Shown here piece after piece: positions 1,774 to 4,016 of a stretch of 36,247 nt of DNA (position 1 is the stretch's first letter; each line of letters starts with the position of its first letter). The position numbers were made by a program, and so were the translations under genes. The stretch is taken from positions 1 through 36,247 of the forward strand of contig JAKBVU010000004.1 of the NCBI GenBank assembly GCA_021841155.1, written 5' to 3'. Under the pieces are notes generated by a model, which was not told where the DNA came from, did not search any database, and worked only from the letters and a program-made list of their open reading frames with translations. This stretch comes from a bacterium. GTDB lineage: Bacteria; Patescibacteriota; Saccharimonadia; Saccharimonadales; UBA4665.

Positions 1774-2348
1774 TTATTCTAAATTTTTTAAAATATCTTT
1801 AGTTTGACGCACTAATCCAATTCTAGGAAAAATAGTTTTCATCGATAAATTATGTTCTTTTTTAGATCTTGCACCGCAAGCATCTTCAGCAAATATTTGC
1901 TGATAACCATATTCATAAGCAAAGCGAGCCGTACTCTCAACACCAATATTAGTAGATATACCGCACAAAACAATCGTTTTGATTTGACGTCTTCTTAGTT
2001 GTAAATCTAGTTCTGTGCCGTAAAAAGCACCCCATTGTCTTTTGTTAATAATAAAATCTGTTTTTCAGGACCTAGCTCGGTGATAAATTCCGTCCAATCA
2101 GATGCCATTTGAGATCGACTCTGCATTAGCTGATCATTTTTTGGTTGTAAAGCATCCTTAAAATCGGCTGACATACCAACATGTACTAAAAAAACTGGCA
2201 TATTATTTTTTCTAAATGTTTGAACCAATTTAACGGCATTACTAGTGATTGTATCAACCGAATATGGTTCAGTCGGCATCGATACAATTCCTTTTTGTAA
2301 ATCAATTACAACTATAGCTGTTGATTTTTTATCAATTTCAATATCCAT
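1774..2348 (-). pseudogene. Isochorismatase-family cysteine hydrolase, frameshifted
   Basis: Two reading frames together make one isochorismatase-like hydrolase of about 191 residues. The upstream frame (2348 to about 2040) gives TAIVVIDLQKG with the expected catalytic Asp16, and ends at LLLTK with the catalytic Lys103. It then runs into a stop at 2007. Adding one A to the AAAA run (plus-strand T2040-T2043) continues as [12 protein letters not shown] and then [15 protein letters not shown], which holds the nucleophilic Cys (about 129). All three catalytic residues and the full fold are therefore present once one base is restored. It could be a recent inactivating mutation or an assembly error; I see no slippery site or stimulatory structure that would argue for programmed frameshifting. 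Family members hydrolyse amides or vinyl ethers (nicotinamidase, isochorismatase, ureidoacrylate); the substrate is not assignable. Confidence 0.8.
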
Positions 2349-2488: not shown

Positions 2489-2695
2489 TTAATTAATTCG
2501 TAACTTTTGGGCATTACGTCTAATCCGTTTTCTGATGATCGAATAATACCTTTCAGTTTGTCTTTGTAACCTAGCTGAAGCATCGGCGAATTTTAAATCG
2601 TCATTTGGTTCACTAGAATTATATAGATATTGTTGAAAGTTTGTTTTTGGATGCTTTGGGTATTTGTGTGTAACTGCTCTTTTTGAGTGAGACAT
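2489..2695 (-). CDS. Small highly basic protein of unknown function (68 aa)
   Basis: I do not recognise this gene. It encodes a short, strongly basic, soluble protein starting MSHSKRAVTHKYPKHPK and ending with an Arg/Lys-rich helix, RYYSIIRKRIRRNAQKLRIN. An upstream ATG at 2713 is in frame, but GAAAGGA lies six bases before the ATG at 2695, so the shorter form is preferred. A good terminator directly after the stop makes it a stand-alone transcription unit. The charge and the predicted C-terminal helix suggest nucleic-acid or ribosome binding; this is inference. I compared it by eye with bS18, bS20 and bS21 and could not align it convincingly. Confidence 0.65.
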   Translation of the reverse strand: MSHSKRAVTHKYPKHPKTNFQQYLYNSSEPNDDLKFADASARLQRQTERYYSIIRKRIRRNAQKLRIN

Positions 2696-2808
2696 TGTAT
2701 ATCCTTTCGACATTAAATTTATTAATTAACGATGAGGCGATTTCCAAAAGACCCTCTTTTCTTTAAATTGCTATCTATATTAATTGTAAAACTATTACTT
2801 TTAGAGTC

Positions 2809-2824
2809 TGTGCGCCTTATCACT
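2809..2824 (+). promoter_or_regulatory. CRP-like operator in the regulator's own promoter
   Basis: TGTGC-N6-TCACT (TGTG-N8-CACT, one mismatch to the TGTG-N8-CACA core). Its centre is at 2816.5, exactly -41.5 from the TSS predicted by the -10 box at 2846-2851. A site at that position would be a class II site and suggests autoregulation. The second half-site is imperfect. Confidence 0.5.
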
Positions 2825-2845
2825 GGTTAAATACCACTAAGGCTC

Positions 2846-2858
2846 TATAATGAAATTA
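2846..2858 (+). promoter_or_regulatory. -10 box of leaderless promoter, Crp-family gene
   Basis: A perfect TATAAT at 2846-2851, then six bases, then the ATG at 2858. With normal spacing transcription starts on the A of ATG, giving a leaderless mRNA. No good -35 is visible, which fits an activator-dependent promoter. Confidence 0.65.
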
Positions 2859-3535
2859 TGTTAGAAACTTCATTGGCCGGTATGCCCGTAAAAAGAATTA
2901 TAGACGAAAGTATTATCGCCTATTTTAATGATGGAATTTTATTACACTTTGATAATGGTCAAACAATTATTAACGGTATCGATGAACCTGAAGGTGTCTT
3001 TCTAATCAAAACTGGCTTTGTTAAAGCATTTTCAATTTCACACGACGGACACGTTAACCTCTTATTGATTCATCAGGTTGGTGATTTTATACCACTACCG
3101 TGGGCCTTAGATGGTGCTCATACTACTGGACTTTATTATGAAGCCATTCAAGGTGTTGATGTTATTAAGGCTTCTAAAAATAAATTAAGAACAGCTCTAG
3201 GCAATAATACTTGGTTATCACAAGAAATCATGAGACAAACCGTTAACATCGTCACTGTTTATACTCAAAGAATCCAAACACTAGAGTTTAGATCAGCGCG
3301 AGGTAGAATGATTTCTGAATTATTAAATTCATCAGAAAGATTCGGCGAAAAAAAAGATCAACAAATTTTAATAAACGCTCCTATTACTTATCAAGATATT
3401 GCTGATTCCATTAATATGAACCGAGAGACAGCTAGTCGGGCCCTAGAAGATCTTTTTGAAGAAGGTTTAGTTAATCAATTAAATCACATGTTTATTATTT
3501 TAGATTTACCACGATTACAACAAGCCCTGATGTAA
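2858..3535 (+). CDS. Crp/Fnr-family transcriptional regulator
   Basis: A 225-residue regulator: an N-terminal cyclic-nucleotide-like beta-roll (about 20-130), a dimerisation helix (about 118-148) and a C-terminal winged helix-turn-helix (about 150-220). The recognition helix reads NRETASRAL. Arg189, Glu190 and Arg194 line up with Arg180, Glu181 and Arg185 of E. coli CRP, the residues that read TGTGA half-sites. The protein contains no cysteine, so an FNR-type iron-sulfur sensor is excluded. The usual cAMP phosphate-binding cassette (GE...L...RSA) is not recognisable around residues 75-95, so the ligand is unknown. TGTG-type sites lie at -41.5 in its own promoter and in front of the next gene, so it probably activates itself and its neighbour (inference). 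Confidence 0.88.
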   Translation: MLETSLAGMPVKRIIDESIIAYFNDGILLHFDNGQTIINGIDEPEGVFLIKTGFVKAFSISHDGHVNLLLIHQVGDFIPLPWALDGAHTTGLYYEAIQGVDVIKASKNKLRTALGNNTWLSQEIMRQTVNIVTVYTQRIQTLEFRSARGRMISELLNSSERFGEKKDQQILINAPITYQDIADSINMNRETASRALEDLFEEGLVNQLNHMFIILDLPRLQQALM

Positions 3536-3554
3536 TCAATGATAGTCTTAGTTG

Positions 3555-3570
3555 TGTGTCATAACGCACA
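3555..3570 (+). promoter_or_regulatory. CRP-like operator upstream of the YggT-like gene
   Basis: TGTGT-N6-GCACA has the exact TGTG-N8-CACA geometry of E. coli CRP sites. Its centre at 3562.5 lies 29.5 bases upstream of TATTAT (3592-3597). This is the same offset as in the regulator's own promoter, and gives -41.5 for a TSS at 3604. Confidence 0.6.
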
Positions 3571-3591
3571 GACCAATGACTGATAGGATGT

Positions 3592-3614
3592 TATTATAGT
3601 GATAAAGAGGAGTT
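3592..3614 (+). promoter_or_regulatory. -10 box and ribosome site for the YggT-like gene
   Basis: TATTAT (3592-3597; overlapping TATAGT at 3595-3600 is an alternative), followed by AAAGAGGAG about 7 bases before the ATG at 3621. Unlike the leaderless genes, this one has a short leader with a good Shine-Dalgarno. Confidence 0.5.
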
Positions 3615-3620
3615 ATTATC

Positions 3621-4016
3621 ATGGACAACAACGAACCACAAAACATTAAAGAAACGACCACCAGAACTGGTGATACGGTTCAAAAAACTACACAAATTAG
3701 TCATCCGCAAGATAGTCGTGAACACAACAAAAACAATATAGCAACTGATATAGTTGCTTACTTAGCTGGTTTATTGATCGTCATACTTGGTATTAGATTT
3801 TTTTTAGCATTATTTGGAGCAAATCCAGCCAATATTTTTGCTAAATTTATTTATAATATCTCTCACCCCTTCGTGGCACCATTTTTTAGTTTGTTTAATT
3901 ATCATAGCTACAATTATGCCATTGCTCATTTTGAAATTTATACTTTAGTCGCCATTATAGTTTATGCACTTATAGCCTGGGGAATTATTAGTCTCATCAA
4001 ACTTAATCAAAAATAG
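3621..4016 (+). CDS. YggT-like small membrane protein
   Basis: A 131-residue protein with a polar N-terminal tail rich in Thr, Gln and Asn (1-35) and two clear membrane helices, about 38-60 and 105-127. The connecting segment has FIYNISHPFVAPFFSLF, which fits the conserved loop of the YggT/YlmG family. Family members are associated with cell division, envelope organisation or osmotic tolerance, but their biochemistry is not settled. The start is supported by the ribosome site at about 3606-3614. The CRP-like operator upstream suggests control by the adjacent regulator. The gene ends two bases from a convergent gene and no terminator separates them. Confidence 0.65.
   Translation: MDNNEPQNIKETTTRTGDTVQKTTQISHPQDSREHNKNNIATDIVAYLAGLLIVILGIRFFLALFGANPANIFAKFIYNISHPFVAPFFSLFNYHSYNYAIAHFEIYTLVAIIVYALIAWGIISLIKLNQK

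Follow-up and report, generated by a model that had tools for sequence, protein, structure and literature searches.

A conserved CRP/FNR-family regulator with a putatively self-activating promoter and a small predicted regulon in Saccharimonadales

Introduction

The closest described relatives of the system analyzed here are members of the CRP/FNR superfamily. E. coli CRP holds cAMP via E72 and R82, the FNR site is TTGAT-N4-ATCAA, and NtcA, the nitrogen regulator of cyanobacteria, combines autoregulation with class II action and recognises GTA-N8-TAC. To our knowledge, little work has been done on how Saccharibacteria and other CPR bacteria regulate their genes, and most of these organisms cannot grow alone. 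Sanchez-Osuna et al. reportedly inferred a LexA regulon for the Patescibacteria in 2017; that work likewise used comparative genomics within the same superphylum, for a regulator of different family and function. In the available text of a 2025 survey, CRP/FNR-type proteins are given as absent from the present lineage (PMC12531629), and the accessible portions of the literature on regulation in the lineage, leaderless transcription, YggT together with Crp, and lmo0937 (including PMC7739468 and PMC12641178) describe neither a CRP regulon nor leaderless transcription for Saccharibacteria.

Here we analyze a CRP/FNR-family regulator and its surroundings in a window of 36,247 nucleotides (the whole stretch of DNA under study) from a Saccharimonadales genome of 599 kb in 35 contigs (G000). 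Like NtcA, its best Foldseek and profile match, the regulator has the CRP/FNR fold; however, the two are only 22–23% identical, and the sites at this regulator have the form TGTGCG-N4-CGCACA rather than GTA-N8-TAC. With E. coli CRP/CAP and the actinobacterial MtbCRP/GlxR it shares an RE-x3-R helix, TGTG/CACA half-sites and the class II position of -41.5, but its cAMP-contact positions are not Glu/Arg and the inner part of its half-site is CG rather than A/T. FNR has the family and the class II position in common with the regulator, which, unlike FNR, is without a cysteine cluster and has a site other than that of FNR.

Results

Two operators with the same promoter geometry

An earlier note on this DNA had proposed two CRP-like sites, each 29.5 bases upstream of a -10 box and therefore at -41.5, and the coordinates proved to be exact on the sequence (Table 1). 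With the -10 boxes assumed to lie at -12 to -7, operators 1 and 2 are both centred at -41.5. The predicted start of transcription at the first promoter is the A of the regulator's own ATG (2858), which would leave the regulator mRNA without a leader. The yggT-like gene has a Shine–Dalgarno (SD)-like aaagaggag 5' of its ATG at 3621. Elsewhere in the window, an isochorismatase-like gene recognised by eye (1774–2348, minus strand) appears divided between two frames, 1774–1968 and 2007–2348, through a frameshift or an assembly error.

Table 1 Features of the regulator locus in the window
Feature	Position	Strand	Remarks
Divergent gene for a small basic protein of 74 aa as called	2489..2713	-	without Pfam family
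Divergent -10 box TACAAT	2783..2788	-	28.5 from operator 1 centre
Operator 1, CRP-like, TGTGCGCCTTATCACT	2809..2824	+	centre 2816.5; probably bidirectional
Regulator promoter -10 box TATAAT	2846..2851	+	29.5 from operator 1 centre; 6 bases 5' of ATG
Regulator gene, CRP/FNR family, 225 aa	2858..3535	+	PF13545, PF00027; predicted leaderless start
Operator 2, CRP-like, TGTGTCATAACGCACA	3555..3570	+	centre 3562.5; counterparts in relatives
yggT-like promoter -10 box TATTAT	3592..3597	+	29.5 from operator 2 centre
YggT-like membrane protein, 131 aa	3621..4016	+	PF02325 sub-threshold match

A predicted CRP/FNR fold without the cAMP contacts of CRP

The regulator matches PF13545 with 47.5 bits and PF00027 with 27.1 bits, just below the cut-off of 27.5, and its predicted structure (pLDDT 86.6, pTM 0.83) adopts the CRP/FNR fold, with NtcA, MtbCRP and GlxR as the nearest structures in a Foldseek search. 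Both Pfam domains are matched at E<=0.01 by all 28 aligned proteins, three of which come from other CPR records. Since every one of these 28 has both domains and matches occur in 91 of the 93 family genomes, the statement of absence, as it appears in the available text of PMC12531629, needs an exception.

The recognition helix RE-x3-R, together with the absence of a cAMP cassette and of cysteine, had been claimed beforehand, and both the sequence and the alignment of orthologues bear this out. R189 and E190 are present in 24 of 24 orthologues and R194 in 23. P79, P81 and W82 are invariant in the same set, with L or M at position 80; in the register derived from the alignment, no E occurs at 78–83 in any of the 24 and no R at 85–92 in 23 of them. 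The regulator of the window contains no cysteine and each of the 24 orthologues at most one, so the four-Cys cluster of FNR is not found. A class III cyclase (PF00211) was detected in 0 of 93 family genomes, a search that covers class III only and in which controls were matched in 5 of 14. The best reading of the alignment is that the signal would not be cAMP acting via the known residues of CRP, the cassette being replaced by P-L/M-P-W; a different ligand, or constitutive action, is suggested by the motif PLPW...TG..YEA, which is conserved in the pocket.

Conservation of site and spacing in orthologous promoters

We compared 26 promoters from 24 genomes, namely that of the window and those of 25 loci (29 returned by the search), with orthologues of 49–91% identity. 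A TATAAT-like box stands 6 or 7 bases 5' of the ATG in all 26, and the site is present in 24, that of L179 being weak; no site was found in the promoters of L175 and L177. The spacing from site to -10 box is exactly 29.5 in 17 of the 24 site-bearing promoters and between 26.5 and 31.5 in the others, and in the four of them whose box is 7 bases from the ATG (L160, L174, L178 and L180) the site is shifted along with it. The consensus of the 24 promoters is TGTGCG-N4-(CG/AT/GT)CACA, also given as TGTGCG...TCAC/CGCACA, and L171 carries the full palindrome TGTGCG-CAAA-CGCACA. Kinship inflates counts of this kind, and the regulators were therefore also clustered at 80% identity: 24 of the 26 form 19 clusters, with L175 and L177 as the two lacking a site, while L178 and L180, which were outside the clustering, both have sites.

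Each promoter was additionally scored with a leave-one-out PWM, for which near-identical sites were dropped from the training set, and compared with sampled 160-nt stretches of the same locus. In the window, operator 1 scores 18.4, which none of 149 other stretches equals. The promoter is unmatched by any sampled stretch in 18 of 24 loci, two of which (L168 and L176) owe their top match to a second, upstream site; stretches scoring as high as the promoter number 1 in L162 and in L171, 3 in L180, 5 in L173 and 6 in L169, and L179 failed the test (72 of 146 stretches). The second palindromes of L168 and L176 are near-perfect and lie 115.5 and 78.5 bases 5' of the regulator ATG, respectively, 74 and 37 bases away from the first site.

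Promoter architecture and the direction of control

The quality of the -10 box peaks at a distance of 29.5 from the site, where 23 of the regulators' own promoters average 4.35 of 6 matches, against 1.93 over all distances. For 14 target promoters, which were picked for having sites and of which L161 and L237 fit less well, the corresponding values are 4.07 and 2.01. A -35 signal is missing from the regulator promoters (2.35 matches vs 2.54 when shuffled), whereas other leaderless promoters nearby show a slight one (3.02 vs 2.57 when shuffled). The promoters thus pair a predicted site at -41.5 with a -10 box while lacking a good -35, the arrangement of class II promoters, and the lack of a -35 together with the near-fixed 29.5 spacing, also at targets, would favor class II activation.

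Alternatively, the regulator could be an autorepressor that blocks RNA polymerase from the same sites, as a site at -41.5 overlaps the place of sigma region 4. Autorepression is common in the CRP/FNR superfamily, and in every promoter that has a site, the site extends over the -35 region. However, there is no -35 in these promoters to block, unlike in the other leaderless promoters, and the site is held near 29.5 at targets too, as contact with the polymerase predicts, whereas a repressor would tolerate other positions. We therefore consider autorepression improbable, and class II activation the preferred reading.

Leaderless starts seem to be general in these genomes. In a count of 260 genes from the window, L097, L157–L180 and L185, with the regulators left out, a TATAAT-like box stands exactly 6 bases 5' of the ATG in 35, against 1–11 at any of the remaining spacings between 0 and 30; the mutual exclusion of SD and box in this gene-start test is partly geometric, because the box occupies the SD region. 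The pattern TATANT-N6-ATG shows no excess in the genome of the window (56 vs 65 at N10 spacing), and an excess in some relatives (for example, 114 vs 40 in G087 and 69 vs 23 in G023). Given the lack of excess in the own genome, the genome-wide count was dropped as proof of leaderless starts, and the gene-start test was judged the better one.

A divergent small basic protein gene

A gene for a protein of 66–74 residues points away from the far side of operator 1. In the window its likely start is the ATG at 2695, following the SD gaaagg, which gives 68 aa. A two-round HMM search finds homologues in 18 of the 26 regulator loci, and in 14 of these 18 the gene is divergent within about 200 bases; it lies elsewhere in the locus in L165 and behind another gene in L180, and in L171 and L173 it is downstream of the regulator with a site of its own and a box at 29.5. 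The 14 members compared with Pfam all fall short of its cut-offs. On the reverse strand, a -10 box with at least 5 of 6 matches occurs 28.5–30.5 bases from the site in 12 of 26 loci, compared with 4% of shuffles. Operator 1 thus probably works both ways and would serve the regulator as well as the divergent gene, which would probably make the circuit larger than the earlier note had it. In L165, the divergent place about 208 bases upstream of the regulator ATG (minus strand) is taken by a 432-aa protein with an N-terminus that shows weak similarity to the small basic protein (E=6e-3).

YggT-like and DUF5670 genes as candidate targets

The YggT-like protein of the window matches PF02325 with 26.0 bits (E=1.3e-5), against a cut-off of 27, and homologues occur in 47 of the 93 family genomes. 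A site and a box at 29.5 precede the yggT-like genes of G000, G044, G043, G021 and G040, in the last of which the gene is on a different contig from the regulator; PWM scores are low in G044 (5.6) and G043 (4.0). In G009 the yggT-like gene is in an operon behind a site, and G009 and G040 share the arrangement of a DUF2142-type gene (the Pfam match was made on the gene of G009), a site, a membrane protein of 121–126 residues and then the yggT-like gene. No site was found directly upstream of the yggT-like genes of five other regulator-bearing genomes (G001, G010, G013, G079 and G085). Among non-bearing genomes, chance matches of at least 9 bits occur 5' of yggT in 3 of 19 cases, none of which has a box at the right distance.

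A second group of candidates are the DUF5670 (lmo0937) genes, which 15 of 93 family genomes carry and which were identified by Pfam (52.2 and 50.0 bits vs a cut-off of 23.5) and NF033488 (52.5 and 49.8 vs 30). With a PWM trained solely on regulator promoters, a site appears 130–134 bases 5' of the gene in three of the four bearing genomes that have one (G021, G044 and G025) and was not found in the fourth, G088; upstream regions from non-bearing genomes reach 9 bits in 0 of 11 cases. DUF5670 and yggT genes adjoin on one strand in G080, G082 and G053, which are without the regulator, so the two target families are linked independently. The best reading of these data is that DUF5670 genes would belong to the regulated set in relatives.

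Motif counts across the family

The earlier note had proposed a scan for enrichment of the motif, and the outcome depends on how strictly the motif is drawn. Plain TGTG-N8-CAC shows no enrichment in the own genome (20 places vs 24 in the control), so that part of the expectation failed. The looser search for TGTG-N8-CAC with a box is near control in most genomes and was left out of the evidence. The part that includes the distance to the -10 box held. For this we used two strict patterns, TGTGCG-N6-CAC or TGTG-N6-CGCAC, followed by 21–23 bases and TANNNT, which occur at 3 places in the own genome against 0 in the control, operators 1 and 2 among them. The third place, G000:C26:1752, was taken as chance, since it coincides in part with the start of a minus-strand ORF of 83 aa; no plus-strand ORF of at least 70 aa lies close downstream. 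Likewise, TGTGCG-N5-WCAC has only 3 places in the own genome, including both operators, and together with the plain count this ruled out a global regulator.

A close orthologue of the regulator is present in 14 genomes of the family; in these, the strict patterns match 20 times against 2 in the control, while the 79 genomes without one have 21 matches against 22 (Fisher p=6.7e-4 for the contrast between the two groups). The 20 sites comprise 8 regulator promoters, 2 of the same sites read outwards, 3 yggT genes, 1 DUF5670 gene, 1 DUF2142 gene and 5 places outside named genes. In three genomes without the orthologue (G017:C8:10290, G018:C14:3889 and G023:C124:4112), a TGTG...GCACAGTCTTGGGGGGT stretch is followed by TATGAT.

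It could be argued that the sites serve another CRP-family protein, the paralogue G000:C31, instead of the regulator between them, as the own genome does hold this second HTH_Crp_2 protein above cut-off, with TGTGCAAACAATCAC upstream; the latter was not counted as a site, there being by eye no -10 box at 29.5. We find this very unlikely. Proteins matching the regulator, for the most part with an identity of about 33%, occur in 91 of 93 family genomes, but strict site and box are enriched only in the 14 with a close orthologue, and the upstream regions of 16 paralogues look different. These commoner paralogues (L037–L052, about 33% identity) have another upstream motif, in many cases TGATG-N4-TCACA by eye, and perhaps constitute a second autoregulated circuit. 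That the sites are functionless chance matches of TGTG/CAC in AT-rich intergenic DNA, as the genome-wide count of 20 vs 24 might suggest, has next to no probability, since sequence and position are kept in 24 of 26 orthologous promoters and also at unlinked targets; for operator 1, this retention in relatives excludes chance.

Discussion

The comparative data point to a real and conserved promoter that is putatively controlled by its own product, a CRP/FNR-family regulator whose predicted regulon is small. From the conservation of the sites, their spacing and their co-occurrence with the regulator we infer binding and activation, and the signal and the envelope role proposed below are drawn in the same way. 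In the circuit that we propose, the regulator, presumably as a dimer, would recognise palindromes like TGTGCG-N4-CGCACA through its Arg-Glu-x3-Arg helix and bind at -41.5 of its own leaderless, -35-less promoter, activating itself. The palindrome of operator 1 would also face the second -10 box, that of the divergent gene for the small basic protein, and the copy at operator 2 would activate the yggT-like gene from -41.5. In relatives, the orthologous regulator would control genes of the yggT-like and DUF5670 kinds at other loci. The regulon would be small and consist mostly of small membrane proteins, with a possible role in the envelope or in stress.

The circuit first proposed in the earlier note, in which the regulator activates itself and drives the YggT-like gene as well, is thus supported by a site in 24 of 26 promoters, by the missing -35 and by strict sites enriched only where the regulator occurs. 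We think it quite likely, judging from sequence, that the protein is a self-activating class II regulator of the CRP/FNR type that governs a small envelope regulon and does not use cAMP in the way of CRP. A fuller version can be put forward only tentatively: a CRP-type envelope regulon independent of cyclic nucleotides, in which a single palindrome, centred near -41.5 of each, activates two divergent promoters, the new small basic protein may feed back on the regulator, the leaderless regulator needs no ribosome-binding site, and yggT and DUF5670 genes form the output.

Full CRP/FNR-type proteins exist in a lineage that, in the available text of the survey cited above (PMC12531629), is reported to be without them. 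What the analysis offers for these bacteria is a regulon open to testing: it comprises a regulator, its motif and a rule for the spacing, along with predicted leaderless starts and a handful of candidate targets.
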